Positions 48,577 through 57,021 of a stretch of DNA of 64,000 nucleotides are shown here, one piece after another; positions within the stretch are counted from its first letter, which is position 1; every line of letters begins with the position of its first letter. Source of the DNA: Gammaproteobacteria bacterium (GTDB lineage Bacteria; Pseudomonadota; Gammaproteobacteria; HK1); contig JAJFJU010000012.1 in NCBI GenBank assembly GCA_021773645.1, positions 248,001-312,000 on the forward strand. The letters are read 5' to 3'. The notes beneath the pieces are model-generated. The model was not told the DNA's origin. It worked only from the letters and a program-made list of their open reading frames with translations, and ran no database searches. The translations under genes were made by a program, and so were the position numbers.

Positions 48577-49506
48577 TTATTGGGGAGTGTTCATCAGACA
48601 ACGGCGCAGATCCTTAGCTAATCCGCGCATGAGTTGGAAGTAGAATTCTGTTCCGGCATCAATGTTTCGTCCCTGTAAATCCAGGGCGATGGCCCGTGCC
48701 GGCCCCCCATTCGTCAGTGTTTGGGCGAGCCGTTTTTCATCGAGGCCATCGTAAAAAACACAGCCGATCTGTTGCTCCGTGATTAGGCCACGCATTTCTC
48801 GCAGTCCCTTGGCTCCAACTGGTGCATCACTATCAGCCACCAGCGCCCCCACAGCGCGGAGATTATAGCGTTGTTCCAGATAGCGAAAGGCGTCGTGGAT
48901 GACGATGTAGGGGGTGCCTGAGTGTGGGATAAGCTCAGTGGAAAGCGCTAGTTCCAGGGCCGTCAGTTTGTCTTTCAAGTGTTTGCCATTTAGCTGGTAA
49001 CGGGCCTGATTGGCGGGGTCGACGCTTGCCAACATCAATTCTACGCGGTCGACAAAAGCACGCATATTGCGTGGGTCAAACCAGATATGGGGATCGGTAC
49101 GCTCAGTTTCGGTATAGGCCTTGAATATTGTCCCATTGGGCCAGATCCCAACGGCTCGTTTACCTAACCGGGTGATGCCGGGGGTATCGGCTAGGGCAAT
49201 TACCCGTTCTTTTGGCAGCCATTGGGCAAGGGGTGCCTTGAGTCCGGCCTCAAGCTCAGGACCCACCCAGAAAACCATATCAGCCTGATGCAGGGTGCGG
49301 GAGGCTGAAGGGCGTAAATGAAAGTGATGGTGCGAGCCCTGTCCTGAAAGGAGCAATATCGGCGTACCGACTCCAGCCATTATCGCGGCCACGATGGAAT
49401 GCAGCGGCTTAATGGTGGTAACCACCTTGGGGGTTGCGCCAACGGAGTGTGTCGCCACTAGCAGGCAGACAAGGATTAGCCATGACGGCCATTTTTGAAT
49501 TTTCAC
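48577..49506 (-). CDS. ZnuA-like metal-binding periplasmic protein
   Basis: The 309-residue product has a signal peptide and the A-1 cluster fold of zinc/manganese binding proteins: VVTTIKPLHSIVAAIMAGVG, metal ligand region GSHHHFHLRPS, HIWFDPRNM, and VIHDAFRYLEQRYN. No ABC permease or ATPase gene (znuB/znuC) lies beside it. It precedes SCO1, so it may deliver metal in the periplasm or serve a distant transporter. The metal is not determinable from the sequence. Confidence 0.88.
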   Translation of the reverse strand: MKIQKWPSWLILVCLLVATHSVGATPKVVTTIKPLHSIVAAIMAGVGTPILLLSGQGSHHHFHLRPSASRTLHQADMVFWVGPELEAGLKAPLAQWLPKERVIALADTPGITRLGKRAVGIWPNGTIFKAYTETERTDPHIWFDPRNMRAFVDRVELMLASVDPANQARYQLNGKHLKDKLTALELALSTELIPHSGTPYIVIHDAFRYLEQRYNLRAVGALVADSDAPVGAKGLREMRGLITEQQIGCVFYDGLDEKRLAQTLTNGGPARAIALDLQGRNIDAGTEFYFQLMRGLAKDLRRCLMNTPQ

Positions 49507-49560
49507 AATAGTCTTGGGGTTATTGCAGGCACGGAGCCAAGTCCGCGCGGGAGGAACAAG

Positions 49561-49842
49561 CTACATCCGGATACCCATGGTAGCCGTTTGGGAGATGTAT
49601 CGCACCGGGTCCGGACCTTTAGTCAGGATGACGCCGCTGAGATGGCGGAGGGAATTACGTAGCCACAGAGCACGTGCCTGAGTGGCGGATGAATGCGCTA
49701 GGGAGGCACTCTGGAAGGCTGTGGTATTCAGCGGGACCGGATCAGAAACACCCATTTCGGTTCCCGCAACCAGACAGCACAGCGCCAGGCCAGTGATGCA
49801 GGCAGGTGTTGTAATGGCAGATAGCAACGTTTTTCGAGTCAC
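49561..49842 (-). CDS. Small hypothetical exported protein
   Basis: This 93-codon GTG-initiated frame encodes an N-terminal hydrophobic stretch (ITGLALCCLVAG) that could be a signal peptide, then a Ser/Ala-rich tail ending ISQTATMGIRM. I do not recognise a family. It lies 54 bases upstream of the ZnuA-like gene on the same strand, so it could be the first gene of that operon. The ribosome-binding site (GGGAAACGC) is weak. Confidence 0.4.
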   Translation of the reverse strand: MTRKTLLSAITTPACITGLALCCLVAGTEMGVSDPVPLNTTAFQSASLAHSSATQARALWLRNSLRHLSGVILTKGPDPVRYISQTATMGIRM

Positions 49843-50197
49843 GCGTTTCCCGGCCCGCGAACGAGCAGATCATGGTTTAAGTAGTGATTCCGGGAAGAGG
49901 AAGGGGCGCCAAGAGGTGGGGCTTAACCTTCCTGTCGGGAGCAAGCTGTCATTGCCAATGGGTGCTGCACTTGTCCCTAGAGAGTCACGAGGAGATAAAC
50001 CGGAGACTCCGATTTGTCGGCAGCTAGAAAACGACTGCACCTCTCCACGAATCCTTAACTCCATTATTGTTACCGCCTTATTATTGTCCCTTGGCGGTTT
50101 TGTGATACGCGTCACAAATTAGCGTATCTGCGGTGTGAGTACAAGTTCAAACAGGTGGGTTGAGAGGGCTCCTTTCATGCATGTATTGTGGTGATTC
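49843..50197. other. Gene-poor intergenic region, 355 bases
   Basis: No convincing coding sequence is present. Short open frames exist on both strands but look like chance. The region holds a CRP-type dyad at 50099-50118 and a small CGGAGACTCCG palindrome near 50001-50011. It separates the start of the small exported/ZnuA-like/SCO1 unit from the end of the antiporter operon. A small RNA or long leader of the metal operon is possible; I could not recognise a known riboswitch. Confidence 0.5.
50099..50118. promoter_or_regulatory. Perfect CRP/Vfr-type operator
   Basis: TTTGTGA-N6-TCACAAA is an exact inverted repeat with seven-base arms and the six-base spacing of cAMP receptor protein sites (TGTGA-N6-TCACA). 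It is about 257 bases before the GTG of the leftward exported protein gene. It is the only such dyad I noticed in this intergenic region. Confidence 0.65.
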
Positions 50198-50647
50198 TTA
50201 GTCACAATGCTTGCCTATTGTGTCTTCAAGTTCTCGAGTGGCCGCTTGGCGCTGGCTGTCGGTAAAGATCTTACGTTCCCCGTCCTTGCCTTTCTGGTAG
50301 AGGTAGCGGGCATTACGAATGTCGCGTAGTTCCTTGCGAGCCCTGGCACAATCACGCTCAAGGTGCTGTTTTTCCTTCCGTACTCGCCGTTGTTTTTGCT
50401 GTTTCTGCTTGCGTTCGATTTCGAAGGCCTTTAACAGGCGCTGTTGTTTCTGTCTTCGCTGCCCATCAATGGCTTTGGTGGGCTCTCGGGTAGGGTGGGC
50501 TATTTCAACTTTTTGCGCTGCCGACCTCCCTGGGCGATCGCCATAGTGCACCTTGCCGTGTGCATCTACCCAGCGATAGATCTCCCCTGCTGCAATTGAT
50601 GTGACACACAGTAGTGAGGCGAGTAACGCCACAACCCCTCGCCTCAC
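50198..50647 (-). CDS. DUF4124 exported protein
   Basis: The 149-residue protein has a signal peptide (VVALLASLLCVTSIAA) and the DUF4124 motif GEIYRWVDAHGKVHYGDRP directly after cleavage. A long Lys/Arg/Gln/Glu-rich coiled helix (QQRLLKAFEIERKQKQQKQR) follows, with two cysteines (ERDCARA and KHCD). Function of the family is unknown; many members sit at the envelope. Its start overlaps the PII-like gene stop by four bases, so it ends the antiporter operon. Confidence 0.85.
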   Translation of the reverse strand: MRRGVVALLASLLCVTSIAAGEIYRWVDAHGKVHYGDRPGRSAAQKVEIAHPTREPTKAIDGQRRQKQQRLLKAFEIERKQKQQKQRRVRKEKQHLERDCARARKELRDIRNARYLYQKGKDGERKIFTDSQRQAATRELEDTIGKHCD

Positions 50648-50976
50648 GCCTCCTCCTCGATCTCGGGGAGCTGGTAGGGGGTCGCTTTGAGTAGCGCCTG
50701 CATATACATCAGTCCGCCGTGGGGCTGGTCGATTTCTGCCGCTTGATAGAGAAACTCGAAGATCTCATCGGCCCTGCTAGCATTCACTACAACGTCTAGC
50801 ACTTCCTTCTCTGTGGTCTCGCCCATGCCGCGGTAGTTCAGCGGGGTCAGGCGTCCGGCACCGCGGGCGCTGTGGATGTTGGCACTTACAATGTCTCTGT
50901 CTTCCTTCAATGCTTTCATGACGGGCATGGCCTTGCCCTTCGGAAGGATGCAGCTAATAAGTTTTTCAGTACTCAT
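50644..50976 (-). CDS. PII-like signalling protein (second of two)
   Basis: The 110-residue protein has the ferredoxin-like fold pattern of the PII family: LISCILPKGKAMPVMKALKE, a T-loop-like region (GRLTPLNYRGMG) and DEIFEFLYQAAEIDQPHGGLMYM (B-loop position). It is diverged from GlnB/GlnK, and the uridylylation context is not intact. PII proteins bind ATP, ADP or other nucleotides and control transporters. It lies six bases after the first PII-like gene and overlaps the DUF4124 gene. Confidence 0.82.
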   Translation of the reverse strand: MSTEKLISCILPKGKAMPVMKALKEDRDIVSANIHSARGAGRLTPLNYRGMGETTEKEVLDVVVNASRADEIFEFLYQAAEIDQPHGGLMYMQALLKATPYQLPEIEEEA

Positions 50977-50982
50977 CGTGCC

Positions 50983-51372
50983 TTACCTTATCCCAGAGCT
51001 GTTGCGCGCTTGCCGTTGGGTCAAGCGTTCGACGATCTCGTGGGGAATATAGGTAGCGGCCTTTTCCAGACGGGTGACGTACATCATGCCCATGCCTGGG
51101 GTACCGAGCTTTCCGGCGTGGTACATGCGCTCGAAGACGCGATCGAGTTGGTCATCCGCAACGACAATGGTGATCACCTCTTTTTCTACCTCGATGGCGA
51201 GGCCAACGACACCGAGCCGCTCTCGTACTCCGCTGCCTTTTCCATAATGAATGGTCGCACCCTGGGCACCGACTTCCTGGGCGGCACGGACTATATCGTC
51301 AGCGACACCGCGCTGGACGATGCAGGTGATGAGCGCGGCATCGGTGAGGACAGGGATTTCTTTATCACTCAT
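50983..51372 (-). CDS. PII-like signalling protein (first of two)
   Basis: The 129-residue protein fits the PII fold: ALITCIVQRGVADDIVRAAQ, GATIHYGKGSGVRERLG, EVEKEVITIVVADDQLDRVFERMYHAGKLGTP and GMGMMYVTRLEKAATYIP. The T-loop is short and lacks the uridylylated tyrosine of GlnB. Its start overlaps the DUF1538 gene stop by four bases, so it is very likely made with that membrane protein and may bind it, as SbtB and GlnK do with their transporters. Confidence 0.84.
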   Translation of the reverse strand: MSDKEIPVLTDAALITCIVQRGVADDIVRAAQEVGAQGATIHYGKGSGVRERLGVVGLAIEVEKEVITIVVADDQLDRVFERMYHAGKLGTPGMGMMYVTRLEKAATYIPHEIVERLTQRQARNSSGIR

Positions 51373-53144
51373 GTCACAGTCTCCGGTGTGGCGATAACTT
51401 GCTGTTCAGATTGTTCATGGCGGCGGCGGATCTTCCATTGGATCCACAGCCCGGTGCCCAGCACCGCGAGGATTGGTCCGATGGAGGCCATGGAAAGGAT
51501 GCCGAAGCCCTCGACGGCACCTACGGCATTGCCAAAGCCGATCCCCATAGAGAGCACCAGTGGCACAGTGACCGGGCCGGTGGTTACGCCAGCACTGTCC
51601 CAGGCGATGTTGACGTATTCCTCGGTGGACAGCGCGGTCATGATTACCGCCAGTAAATAACCTGGCAGTAGCAGATAGATAATGGGGATGGAGAAGATGA
51701 TTTTCAGTATCCCCAGGGCGATACCACAGCCGACCCCGAAGGCCACGGCTCGCATCAGCATGCGTTTGGGAAAAGCGCCGTTGGTGAGGTTTTCCACGGT
51801 CAGTCCGAGGGCATTGAGGGCGGGTTCGGCGAGAGTTGCCCCAAAGCCGAGAAACCAGGCAAATAGCAGCGCCACGAGGATCCCGAAGCCAAAGGAATAG
51901 AGCGGTGAATTAGCCACTATTTCGATCTGGGTAAAGGCGGCGGGTACTAGGCCACCGGATTGGCCGCCCAGCTTGGCAAGGCCATAGCTCAGCCCGATGT
52001 TGAAGATGATCATACCGAGTAATGCGAGGCTGATGCCGTAGGTGATTTCGCCGGGCTTACTGAGTTTTTCCCGTAGCACCATGCTCAGTACTAACAGCAG
52101 GAAAATGACTAACGGCACTATGGCGCGAATACCGCCGATTACTTCCAGCCACGGGGTGCGCGCATGCCAGGCCAGTGTGCCGGTATCTACTGCAGCGCTA
52201 GCGGCGGCGGTGGCAATGAGTTCGGCCGGCGAGCTTATATTTGCCACATATAGGGCCAGTAGCATGACGGTCATGATAGGAAACAACGAGGCTAGGGTGA
52301 CGATGCCAAAGCCAGACAGGGAGGAGTCTCCCTTGCCAGCGGCTGCCGCGATGCCAATGCCGAGGGAGAGCATTAAAGGTACCGTAATCGGCCCGGTGGT
52401 GACCGCGCCGCAATCCCACGCTAGACCGAGGATTTCCCGTAGTTGCGGGTCGGCGGAGATATAGAGGCTGAGACCGATGGTGGGGATGAGGGTGAGATAG
52501 ACCAGTGGTTTAAGGCTCCACCCGTAGAGAAAACGCAGGGTGCCAACCACCGCCGCCAGCCCAACCCCGGCACCCACACCCAGTACCAGTACGTCGGCCC
52601 ACTGATTGAGCAGGGCGTACAGGTAGGGGGCGTCTTCTGCGCGTACGTTGGAGCCAGCGGTCTTAAGGGCGCCGATGGCGGGTTCGGCGAAGGTTACGCC
52701 GATACCCAGCAGCAGGGTGATGGTCAGTACCGTGGGCAGGGCTGAACGTGAGGGCAGGATGGTGCCAATAATTTGGCCAAAGGGCATCAGGCCCACCTTG
52801 AGGCCCTCCATGAAAAGCACCAATCCTACGATGACGGAAAGCAGTCCGGCAGTGATAACCGTGGAATCCGTTACATTCTGGCGCAGGACCAACAGTTGGA
52901 AGAGCATCAGATACAGCGCCAGCGGTACCACTGCGCGGAGTTGTTCCAGCAGGCGTACGCCCACATAGGGCTGGATGACCGCATACACCTCTGCGGGTCG
53001 AAGTTGTAGCCGGTCCGGGCGATAAGGCAGTGCCTCACCCCCGGCATCCGTTTGTAGCTCGGGAACTAGCTCATTGTAGCTAAGCGGTCGCTCGCGCCCG
53101 GCGATCTCCTGGATAAAGGTTCCAAAACGTATTTTGATGCTCAT
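51369..53144 (-). CDS. DUF1538 integral membrane protein with internal duplication
   Basis: The 591-residue protein has many transmembrane segments and two copies of the DUF1538 unit. Copy one includes AEPAIGALKTAG (153-164) and AWDCGAVTTGPITVPLMLSL (242-261); copy two has AEPALNALGL (439-448) and AWDSAGVTTGPVTVPLVLSM (514-533). The repeats run in the same direction. The family is uncharacterised but looks like a transporter, the conserved TTGP(I/V)TVPL re-entrant-like segment being a candidate substrate site. It is coupled to the antiporter upstream and to two PII-like genes downstream. Confidence 0.9.
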   Translation of the reverse strand: MSIKIRFGTFIQEIAGRERPLSYNELVPELQTDAGGEALPYRPDRLQLRPAEVYAVIQPYVGVRLLEQLRAVVPLALYLMLFQLLVLRQNVTDSTVITAGLLSVIVGLVLFMEGLKVGLMPFGQIIGTILPSRSALPTVLTITLLLGIGVTFAEPAIGALKTAGSNVRAEDAPYLYALLNQWADVLVLGVGAGVGLAAVVGTLRFLYGWSLKPLVYLTLIPTIGLSLYISADPQLREILGLAWDCGAVTTGPITVPLMLSLGIGIAAAAGKGDSSLSGFGIVTLASLFPIMTVMLLALYVANISSPAELIATAAASAAVDTGTLAWHARTPWLEVIGGIRAIVPLVIFLLLVLSMVLREKLSKPGEITYGISLALLGMIIFNIGLSYGLAKLGGQSGGLVPAAFTQIEIVANSPLYSFGFGILVALLFAWFLGFGATLAEPALNALGLTVENLTNGAFPKRMLMRAVAFGVGCGIALGILKIIFSIPIIYLLLPGYLLAVIMTALSTEEYVNIAWDSAGVTTGPVTVPLVLSMGIGFGNAVGAVEGFGILSMASIGPILAVLGTGLWIQWKIRRRHEQSEQQVIATPETVT

Positions 53145-55591
53145 GGGGATTCCTGTTCCGGGTTTTCCTGGCGCTGTTTACTGGCCTTTATAAGTCGCTG
53201 CTTTACCTCTGGATGCTGTTTGGCAAGATGCAGCACATCTTTGCGAACCAGGCGTAACAATGTGGCCGGGGTTTCGGCGCGTACCGTGGCGGAACGCAGC
53301 GAGTGGCCCAGCAAAGCGGTTTCTCCGAAAAAGGCGCCCTCGGTGAGGCAACCAAGCCGGGTTTTACCGCCTTGTGTCTGATTGCGTAACACCGCCACCT
53401 CGCCGCGAATGAGGATATATAGGGCGTCCCCTTTTTCCCCTTCACCGATGATTTCGTCGCCCATTAAAAAGGTCACCTGGCGGGCATGCTGAGCGAGGGC
53501 AGTGAGGGCATTGACCGACAAGCCGGCAAATAGCGGCACCATCTGGATTAGCTCCTCGGGCGTGGGCTGTGGCAATGGCACCGTAATGGGTGGTAGTGCT
53601 TCCAGCGCCTGGCGTATGCGCTCAGCGATGCGGGTATAGGCCTTTGCTCCTACGCTACCGTGATGATGCGCCTCGGCAGTATTTTGCAGCGCCGAGCTTA
53701 GCGCAACGCGGCTGAATAGGCGGGACTCAAAGCGCCGGTAAAAGTTGGGAAATTCACGCCGGATGGTTTCCAATCTCTGTTGGCGGTGTTGCAGCCGTTC
53801 CGTGTAGGTTGCCATGATTGGCACACAAGCCTTAGTGGGAAATTCCGTGTGTGCTCGCAAAGCCCTAAGCACTGTATCGGCCATCAGTATGCCGGCGATG
53901 GTTCGTTCTAGGCGTTGCGACAGGCGTAGATTCTGGTAGCGAGCCAAAAAACCACTGGCCCAGTCGCGTTCTCGCAGGCGACGTAACAAGGCGCTCTCCA
54001 AACGCAAAAACAGGCTTTTTCGATGTGCTGGTCCAGTGATTGCGCTGGGGTCTAGGCGGCCGCGTTGATCCCGGTCTCGTTGCAACAGATTGCGCAGATC
54101 GATGTAGCTGTATTGGGTGATGAGATGCAGATCGTATAGCCGGGCTAGCTCCTCCTGTTCCATGCGTAGGGCAAACAGGTAGACATCCCGGCTCGCATCT
54201 CCTGCTTTGCCATCGCTTAGCAGCACCGTTGCGAGATCCTTGCGAAAGCGATGCACGCCTGCCTTCGAAATGACACCGGAATCGTGCATCTCATCGATGC
54301 TTTGCTCTACCTGATGACGGGCCTCCAGCATCCCTTGTCTGAGTTCGGCCCGATCCTCTCGGGTCATGCGGTCGAGTCCCAGCCAGCGCATCAGTGGGCG
54401 AATCGTGGGTGCATTGATCAGCAGGGTGAAGAGCACCACCCCAAGGGTAAGGTCGAGCAGCAAGGGGCGGGCGGGAAAATCCTCGGGGATGGAGAGCACG
54501 ATGGCGATGGCAAGTCCGCCCTTGAGCCCACCCCACCACATGATGTGTTGTTCGCCGCTGCTGATTTTTGGCAAGGAGAAAAACCGGGTGGTGAGTGGTA
54601 CCAAGCTGTAGAGAGTGGCGGCCCGCGCCGCCATTACCAGGGCGACCACCAGGAGAATGACATCAAGGCGCGAGGCCAGCTCTGCCGGGTGGATGGCCAG
54701 GCCTACTAATAAAAAGAGCAGGGAATTAGCAATCAGAGCGAGAAACTCCCAAGTCTCGCCAAGGCTGTCTGTGGCCTCCTGATGGAGGCGGGCGACGCCG
54801 TAGATTCCCAAGGCAAGGGCCGCACTAACCGCCGCCATCACCCCGGAGACATGCCATACGTGCTCTGCGAGGATGAAGCTGCCGTAGGCGAGTACCAGGG
54901 ACATTGTGAGGATGGCGCTTAAGCCACTTTTCAGGCGGTAGAGCAGTTCGGAAACGATCAGTCCAAGTATGGCACCCACCAGTGCACCACCGAGAAAAAT
55001 GCGCAGGAAGTCGAGCACTGCCGCGCCGAATAGGGTCCAGTCATGTCGACCACCTTCGACACTGATAGCGAGCAGAATACTAAATAGCACGATAGCGGTG
55101 GCGTCGTTGAGCAGGGACTCGCCTTCTACGAGGACGGTAAGTCGCTGGGGTGCGCCCAGTTCCCGGAATAGCGCTACCACCGCTACCGGATCAGTCGCGG
55201 ATATCAGGGCCCCGAAGAGCAGTGCCGTGACGGGTGCCAGGCCGATGAGCAGATGGAGACCGCTACCGACGAGAAAAGTGGAGATCAGTAGTGCCGGGAT
55301 TGCCAGCATCAGCACTGGCACCAGGTCACGAAGTAGCAGGCGTGCGTTGAGATTGAAACCGGATTCAAATATCAGTGCTGGCAGGAAGATAAAGAACACG
55401 ATTTCCGGGCTCAGGCGAAAAGTCTGCAGCGAGGAGAGCGGCTGCCAGACATCTGCCAAACTGCCGAGCACTATACCGATGAGTACCAGCAGCACGGTGA
55501 AGGGAATGGGGAGATTGCGGCACAGCCCAGCGGCGATGATGGCCACCGCCAGCAGGCCCATGATAACCAGTACGGTTTCCGAGATTGGCAC
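53141..55591 (-). CDS. CPA1-family Na+/H+ antiporter with C-terminal cNMP-binding domain
   Basis: The 816-residue protein has about 12 transmembrane segments with the CPA1 ion site (SATDPVAVVALFRELG, then GESLLNDATAIVLF, residues 131-170). A long cytoplasmic helical region (about 415-690) and a cyclic-nucleotide-binding fold (about 690-800; VPLFAGLSVNALTALAQHAR, GAFFGETALLG) follow. Layout resembles plant SOS1/NhaP antiporters. It is the first gene of the five-gene operon and overlaps DUF1538 by four bases. Na+ versus K+ specificity is not decidable here. Confidence 0.94.
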   Translation of the reverse strand: MPISETVLVIMGLLAVAIIAAGLCRNLPIPFTVLLVLIGIVLGSLADVWQPLSSLQTFRLSPEIVFFIFLPALIFESGFNLNARLLLRDLVPVLMLAIPALLISTFLVGSGLHLLIGLAPVTALLFGALISATDPVAVVALFRELGAPQRLTVLVEGESLLNDATAIVLFSILLAISVEGGRHDWTLFGAAVLDFLRIFLGGALVGAILGLIVSELLYRLKSGLSAILTMSLVLAYGSFILAEHVWHVSGVMAAVSAALALGIYGVARLHQEATDSLGETWEFLALIANSLLFLLVGLAIHPAELASRLDVILLVVALVMAARAATLYSLVPLTTRFFSLPKISSGEQHIMWWGGLKGGLAIAIVLSIPEDFPARPLLLDLTLGVVLFTLLINAPTIRPLMRWLGLDRMTREDRAELRQGMLEARHQVEQSIDEMHDSGVISKAGVHRFRKDLATVLLSDGKAGDASRDVYLFALRMEQEELARLYDLHLITQYSYIDLRNLLQRDRDQRGRLDPSAITGPAHRKSLFLRLESALLRRLRERDWASGFLARYQNLRLSQRLERTIAGILMADTVLRALRAHTEFPTKACVPIMATYTERLQHRQQRLETIRREFPNFYRRFESRLFSRVALSSALQNTAEAHHHGSVGAKAYTRIAERIRQALEALPPITVPLPQPTPEELIQMVPLFAGLSVNALTALAQHARQVTFLMGDEIIGEGEKGDALYILIRGEVAVLRNQTQGGKTRLGCLTEGAFFGETALLGHSLRSATVRAETPATLLRLVRKDVLHLAKQHPEVKQRLIKASKQRQENPEQESP

Positions 55592-55875
55592 GCCTTGTCA
55601 CCTGTGTGTGGACTGCTTTTCAGCGGGGTGATTATGGCCTAGGCGCTTCCCCTACGTTCCCTCCAGATTAGAACGTGACGCCTGATTCAGAGTGTAGCAG
55701 TCTGTTTGAGTATAAGGACTATGCAGAAACAGGGTGTTAGGTGATTTTCGTAGGGTGGGTCACCCTCGCACTGTTTGTACAAGGGCGTACTTATTGACGC
55801 GGGGGCATGGAAGCCCAAGAGCGGCCCTGTGCTTCACGACATAAGGCCATCCATGGCCAAAGCCACCCGTTCACC

Positions 55876-57021
55876 CTATGCGTCTCGGGGAAATTCAGCG
55901 CTAGGGGGGCGCTGTTGCCCAAGGGCGTAGTCTTCCGGCGGCAGGATGGGGGGACGCTCCAGCATAAGGTCCAGCAGCAGATGTACCGCGGCCGGGGCCA
56001 GGCCGAGGCCGTTGCGATAGTGGCCGGTGTTGATGTAGAAGCCGGAAATTTCCGGGTGTTCGCCGATATAGGGGACTCCGTTGGGGGAGCCCGGACGTAG
56101 CCCGGCCCAGTGGTGCTCTATCTCGCAATTGGCTAGTGCCGGGATTAATTCGATAGCTGCGGCTTGCAGATCTTCCCGGGCACTTTCTGTGGTGTTTTTG
56201 TTGAAGCCGACAAATTCCACCGTGCTGCCAGCCAGCACACGGCCGTCGAGGCGTGGAATGACATAGCGTGGGCCATCGAGGACGATACGGGTTACCAGAT
56301 CTTCGGGGGCACGAAACACCAGCATCTGGCCGCGTACGGGTAGTACCTTGAGGGTGGTTTGCAGGCCGTTGGTGAGCTGCGGACTCCACGCGCCCGCTGC
56401 CAGAATGACCCGATCGGCGCGTAGTATGCCCTCGGCGGTGCGCACACCGCGAATATGGCCATCGGCAATTTCCAAGCCGGTTACAGCGCAATTTTCACGG
56501 ATATCGACTCGTCGCCGATGCAGGCTTTCGGTCAGCGCGCGGCCCATGCGTGGGTTACGTGCCTGGGCAAGTTTTGGTAGCCACACGGCGTTGCCCTTGC
56601 GTGGGGCCATTGCTGGTTCACGGATTGCCGCTTCATCGGCGGACAGTAATTCGATTTGAGTCTGCCATTTCTTGCCCCAAGCCAGCGCGCCGTCAATGTC
56701 CTCCGGGTCAAGCACTAGCACGCCGCTTTGCACCCATTCCGGGTCAACACCGGTCTCAGTTTTTAGTGCCTCAGCAAATTCCGGATAACGGGCCTGGCTC
56801 CAACGCGCCATGGCCGATACCGCGTCCGGGTAACGCCAGGGGTGTAGTGGCGAGAGGATGCCGCCGCCGGCCCAGGTGGATTCCTGTCCAGTCTGGCCCT
56901 TGTCTAACAGGGTCACTTTCAGGCCCTCGCCAGCCAGTTCGCGGGCACAGAGCATGCCGATGACGCCGCCGCCAATGATGATGCAGTCGGGCGCGTCGTA
57001 TTTTATTTGGGGGTCGGACAT
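55876..57021 (-). CDS. thiO: Glycine oxidase ThiO
   Basis: ThiO (381 aa) is an FAD-dependent D-amino-acid-oxidase-type enzyme that makes iminoglycine for the thiamine thiazole ring. The dinucleotide fold IIGGGVIGMLCARELAGEG, the GQESTWAGGGILSP segment, VILAAGAWSPQL, and the C-terminal IGEHPEISGFYINTGHYRNG are intact. No thiG, thiS or thiF lies beside it. It is divergent from the oligopeptide-binding protein at 57141. The 284 bases between it and the antiporter hold no gene. Confidence 0.95.
   Translation of the reverse strand: MSDPQIKYDAPDCIIIGGGVIGMLCARELAGEGLKVTLLDKGQTGQESTWAGGGILSPLHPWRYPDAVSAMARWSQARYPEFAEALKTETGVDPEWVQSGVLVLDPEDIDGALAWGKKWQTQIELLSADEAAIREPAMAPRKGNAVWLPKLAQARNPRMGRALTESLHRRRVDIRENCAVTGLEIADGHIRGVRTAEGILRADRVILAAGAWSPQLTNGLQTTLKVLPVRGQMLVFRAPEDLVTRIVLDGPRYVIPRLDGRVLAGSTVEFVGFNKNTTESAREDLQAAAIELIPALANCEIEHHWAGLRPGSPNGVPYIGEHPEISGFYINTGHYRNGLGLAPAAVHLLLDLMLERPPILPPEDYALGQQRPPSAEFPRDA

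Follow-up and report, generated by a model that had tools for sequence, protein, structure and literature searches.

DUF1538 genes were found to be accompanied near-obligately by genes for PII-like proteins, and the locus described here is read, at a probability of about 0.6, as an operon for monovalent cation/proton antiport that includes dedicated soluble regulators of PII type. The locus lies in a window, meaning the whole stretch of 64,000 nucleotides that was analysed (G000:C4:248001-312000), in a 2.49-Mb draft genome (28 contigs, 99.9% complete). It consists of five open reading frames at positions 50198-55591, all on the minus strand, listed here in gene order.

53141..55591, minus strand: CPA1 Na+/H+ antiporter with a C-terminal cyclic-nucleotide-binding domain, SOS1/sperm-NHE-like by its domains; 816 aa; PF00999, PF00027.
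51369..53144, minus strand: fused DUF1538 membrane protein, candidate cation/proton antiporter; 591 aa; PF07556 twice.
50983..51372, minus strand: PII-like a; 129 aa; P-II 33.4 bits, AlphaFold model.
50644..50976, minus strand: PII-like b, a diverged paralogue of PII-like a; 110 aa; P-II 19.1 bits, family profile.
50198..50647, minus strand: DUF4124 protein; 149 aa; PF13511, E 1e-12.

The junctions, in gene order, are -4, -4, +6 and -4 bases. An earlier sequence-only reading had given these five reading frames with the same 4-base overlaps and 6-base gap, and its coordinates and junctions agreed exactly with ours; the genes form a single co-directional cluster with overlaps, which supports that part of the reading. 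Two further genomes of the genus have the same five-gene order, at a protein identity of 59-90%, indicating that the arrangement is not due to chance. Promoter-like and terminator-like sites in 49500-56200 were no commoner than in shuffled sequence, and no similar DNA was found in E. coli genomes. The DUF4124 protein, with a probable N-terminal signal peptide (judged by eye), had been counted as part of the module. Among the fused loci surveyed, a DUF4124 gene followed PII-like b at this operon position in the genus's three genomes and nowhere else, so it is no conserved component and was treated as a passenger or local addition.

A single scan yielded 80 loci with a fused DUF1538 gene, mostly in Pseudomonadota and also, by record title, in Nitrospinota, Gemmatimonadota, Elusimicrobia, Opitutales, Bdellovibrionales and Campylobacterota. 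Two PII-like genes lay directly behind the fused gene in 74/74 loci with enough downstream sequence; a single PII-like gene lay directly behind split or short-fused DUF1538 in 40/40 loci of a separate gammaproteobacterial sample, and a PII-like gene did so in 12/12 split loci of the same order and in 6/6 extra DUF1538 loci, all of these being loci that share ancestry and are not independent trials. Five of the remaining fused loci had one PII-like gene before or near a contig end, and the last contig ended 92 bases after DUF1538. A P-II gene was also annotated beside DUF1538 in the four plasmid records inspected, from Methylocystis and three clostridia. The clostridial proteins have 222-224 residues each (L171:4483-5151, L172:4611-5279 and L173:4991-5665); the Pfam P-II model matched two stretches in those of Paraclostridium and Peptoclostridium and a single stretch in that of Vescimonas. 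In a Candidatus Lindowbacteria metagenome-assembled genome (MAG; L118:3-4572), two fused DUF1538 genes were found in tandem, the first followed by one PII-like gene and the second by two.

DUF1538 was present in 127/370 sampled gammaproteobacterial genomes, about a third, and in 21 of the 75 gammaproteobacterial genomes used for co-occurrence. The partner-PII profile matched in 20/21 genomes with DUF1538 compared to 0/54 without it (Fisher p 2.6e-17, uncorrected for shared ancestry). The 21st, profile-negative genome has both PII-like genes in place behind DUF1538. The sequence-only reading had assigned the PII-like genes to DUF1538 and had named a rarity of such neighbours as the outcome that would speak against it. 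The result was strongly opposite to that outcome, and in the fused as well as the gammaproteobacterial loci the link is far stronger than had been proposed. In the open-licence literature DUF1538 is named in five papers, and no paper on the DUF1538-PII pairing was found.

The fused DUF1538 protein contains two PF07556 repeats (349.5 bits against a Pfam cut-off of 22.6, E 6.7e-105), and has a UmpA-like N half at about residues 65-297 and a UmpB-like C half at about 339-577. In Halomonas zhaodongensis, UmpA and UmpB are two DUF1538 proteins that jointly act as a Na+(Li+,K+)/H+ antiporter; the pair confers Na+/Li+ tolerance, and the exchange was measured in E. coli vesicles (PMC5484666). The membrane protein, which had been described as a transporter of unknown function, thus belongs to a family with a characterised cation/proton antiporter member, and because of that member cation/proton homeostasis is considered more likely than solute uptake. 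No DUF1538 biochemistry was found beyond this one heterologous study, in which PII is never mentioned. The construct assayed there carried umpA and umpB alone, indicating that antiport is possible in the absence of a PII partner; the PII protein may be a regulator, a subunit required in other settings, or something else. Elsewhere, DUF1538 is among the Pfam features that predict growth pH, alongside Mrp, Trk and Kdp (PMC13255231), and UmpAB of brackish and salt-water cable bacteria has been reported as a salinity adaptation (PMC10030654).

Against the NCBIfam equivalog models for UmpA and UmpB (NF041627 and NF041628, curated cut-offs 490/500), the fused protein scored 197.3 and 165.5 bits, both below cut-off. 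A second DUF1538 locus of the same genome (L001:1450-3323; G000:C7:12907-14726) encodes a UmpA-UmpB-like pair as two separate genes with one PII-like gene behind them, and this pair, at 365 and 353 bits, was likewise under the equivalog cut-offs. Compared with the UmpA and UmpB encoded in its own genome, the fused protein shows identities of 37% and 30%, respectively, and both of its halves fell into separate clades with full support in the tree. As judged from these comparisons, the protein is a UmpAB relative in a distinct clade and no UmpAB equivalog, and for the same reasons its substrate may differ from that of UmpAB. Four acidic positions, E154, D244, E440 and D516, were invariant across 45 fused relatives, and in the split and short-fused halves that were inspected they line up with conserved acidic residues; E154 and E440 are the AEP glutamates and D244 and D516 the aspartates, and all four may take part in transport. 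Sequence searches found no solved relatives of DUF1538, and a model of the protein (pLDDT 81) gave no fold match to solved structures (best Foldseek E 0.017 with TM about 0.15; best Z 5.0), the comparison with the NCX_Mj exchanger being a weak match (Z 4.2). Since the model was built from 45 sequences for 591 residues, the absent match is no sign of a new fold. In a Rhodobacteraceae MAG (L076:789-3209), a hemerythrin domain is fused in frame to the DUF1538 N-terminus (Pfam E 7.8e-13), which hints at a connection to iron or oxygen there.

Of the two small proteins, PII-like a scored above the Pfam P-II cut-off of 25 and PII-like b under it. The AlphaFold model of PII-like a (pLDDT 85) has a PII fold, with Z about 12 to GlnZ and other solved PII chains, on which it superposes at 2-4 Å over 90-100 residues. 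The profile of the PII-like b family (A4, 43 members) matched solved PII proteins with E down to 2e-7, and the two proteins are 34% identical in the alignment; given its sub-threshold score, the identity of PII-like b as a PII protein depends on this profile and alignment. In an unrooted tree PII-like b formed its own supported group, and the grouping of PII-like a was weak. At the place of the B-loop GDGK, the alignment showed GMGM in PII-like a and HGGL in PII-like b. The C-loop RxR (RIR) and the T-loop tyrosine were absent in both, and the T-loop was shorter. The GDGK B-loop, C-loop RxR and T-loop tyrosine are all retained in the genome's own GlnB and GlnK. With these residues missing, ATP/2-oxoglutarate sensing and uridylylation cannot be assumed for PII-like a and b, and the energy-charge control through PII that had been suggested for the operon loses its basis.

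Conserved G and R residues nevertheless persist at the base of the T-loop, and 94-95% of the relatives of PII-like a keep its R50 and R52. In SbtB the R43xxR46 motif holds the ATP phosphates (PMC10117731), and by analogy the RER sequence at the base of the PII-like a T-loop is a candidate for binding phosphate. As for other ligands and relatives, c-di-AMP made by a DAC enzyme is an unlikely ligand, as no DAC domain was found in the genome, and the Borrelia PII-like protein is unrelated, being DUF2179.

The loss of the canonical ligand residues could also mean that sensing itself was lost, in which case the PII-like proteins would serve the DUF1538 antiporter as structural or assembly subunits and sense no ligand. 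The near-obligate linkage, the tight spacing of the genes and the clostridial plasmid partners, two of them with two PII domains per chain, are all compatible with such a role. UmpAB was, however, active in E. coli with no PII gene in the expressed construct, and the T-loop base has kept its conserved G and R, and we regard a purely structural role as unlikely.

The first gene of the operon encodes a protein with PF00999 at residues 15-403 (E 2.9e-61) and PF00027 at 706-793 (E 4.8e-19). Its best solved relatives were sperm NHE (E 4.2e-48) and plant SOS1 (E 8.3e-48), which are antiporters with a cyclic-nucleotide domain. The PF00999 core, the 'ND' motif (GESLLNDATAIVL) and the C-terminal PF00027 place it with the SOS1/SLC9C1 type, and the motif of the phosphate-binding cassette (FFGETALLGHSLRSA) is intact. 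Four class III cyclase domains are present in the genome, which makes a cyclic nucleotide a plausible ligand and control of CPA1 by it plausible on these sequence grounds. A CPA1 of this kind adjoined the DUF1538-PII-PII triad in 12/80 fused loci, placed upstream on the same strand, upstream and divergent, or downstream; apart from the window, Pfam confirmed the domains at seven loci, the others resting on the CPA1 profile. At a thirteenth locus (L096), which is partial, the cyclic-nucleotide domain alone was visible. The genome has three PF00999 proteins, so chance adjacency of CPA1 and the triad should be rare, and the varied placements suggest repeated recruitment. CPA1 is a recurrent yet optional neighbour of DUF1538-PII: its joining to the module, as first proposed, does recur, but it is not a fixed part.

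Two further arrangements were observed. A CPA1 with TrkA-C and CorC/HlyC domains lies directly upstream of a divergent UmpA-UmpB-PII locus (L189:3770-7440), another antiporter type recruited beside DUF1538. In a Nitrospirae MAG, CPA1-type matches flank one fused DUF1538-PII-PII triad on both sides (L090:7770-15030).

The earlier proposal for the operon was a Na+-coupled uptake module for inorganic carbon, ammonium or an osmolyte, in which CPA1 would recycle Na+ and the PII proteins would gate uptake in the manner of SbtA-SbtB. PII-transporter pairs of known substrate are indeed mostly uptake systems (GlnK-AmtB, SbtB-SbtA), the fused DUF1538 clade is separate from UmpAB, and several carriers belong, by name, to groups with autotrophs (Nitrospinaceae, Mariprofundus, Thiobacillus). 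Bdellovibrionales and Opitutales are among the carriers as well, however, and beyond the PII genes and CPA1 no recurring neighbour stood out in the fused loci. The sole DUF1538 biochemistry found is antiport (PMC5484666), and the genome contains a separate, canonical GlnK-AmtB pair. No evidence for uptake of any of these solutes was found, and such a module appears quite unlikely. That the PII pair acts elsewhere, on an enzyme or a transcription regulator, and has no more than an operon in common with the antiporters would fit the many soluble targets of PII proteins, but is highly improbable given its near-perfect co-inheritance with DUF1538 in gammaproteobacterial genomes and CPA1 as the only other recurring neighbour.

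In the cation/proton antiport operon that we favour, the fused DUF1538 protein would exchange H+ against Na+ and/or K+, with the invariant carboxylate pairs E154/D244 and E440/D516 as the probable route. PII-like a and b would assemble as PII-type trimers, either homo- or heteromeric, and dock on the cytoplasmic face of DUF1538, where the ligand-bound proteins would turn it on or off, as in GlnK-AmtB and SbtB-SbtA. The ligand would not be sensed through the canonical ATP/2-oxoglutarate residues. CPA1 would be a second, co-transcribed antiporter, gated by a cyclic nucleotide through its C-terminal domain. Extended to the family, and put forward tentatively at somewhat short of even odds, DUF1538/UmpAB antiporters may almost universally consist of three parts, with a non-canonical PII-type protein gating monovalent-cation/proton exchange in response to a ligand other than ATP/2-oxoglutarate. 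With the same reservation, the PII partner would be one protein for split and short-fused DUF1538, a diverged pair for long fused DUF1538, and a tandem double-PII chain in some clostridia.

The window protein shares with UmpAB (PMC5484666) the DUF1538 repeats, the order of a UmpA-like and then a UmpB-like half, and the carboxylate positions. It differs in being a single chain (591 aa) with added segments at the N-terminus and in the linker, in its separate clade and scores below the equivalog cut-offs, and in having two PII partners, not one. As in AmtB-GlnK and in SbtA-SbtB, the cyanobacterial Na+/bicarbonate transporter with its PII-like regulator, a membrane transporter is encoded with a small PII-fold protein, and the basal T-loop arginines of PII-like a are comparable in place to R43xxR46 of SbtB (PMC10117731). 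In contrast to those systems, DUF1538 is unrelated by sequence to their transporters, and the window has two diverged PII paralogues that are without the canonical B-loop, C-loop and uridylylation residues. According to Sant'Anna 2009, as far as it is cited in PMC7726332, PII-NG proteins are encoded beside CzcABC cation/proton antiporters. On that account a diverged PII protein is likewise encoded with a cation/proton antiporter, but CzcABC is an RND heavy-metal pump and DUF1538 is a monovalent-cation antiporter family. The window CPA1 combines a CPA1 core and a cyclic-nucleotide-binding domain as SOS1 and sperm NHE (SLC9C1) do, but is bacterial, is 816 aa long and has no voltage-sensor family among its Pfam matches.

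PII proteins are regulators of nitrogen and carbon. If the antiport reading is true, PII control would extend to salt and pH homeostasis through a branch linked to a family of monovalent-cation/proton antiporters, a PII branch dedicated to ion and pH homeostasis. The UmpAB measurements (PMC5484666) were interpreted without this likely PII regulator, and the little-studied DUF1538 family would gain its missing regulatory component. The DUF1538-PII pairing makes a dedicated regulator of the salt and pH balance of the cell directly testable.
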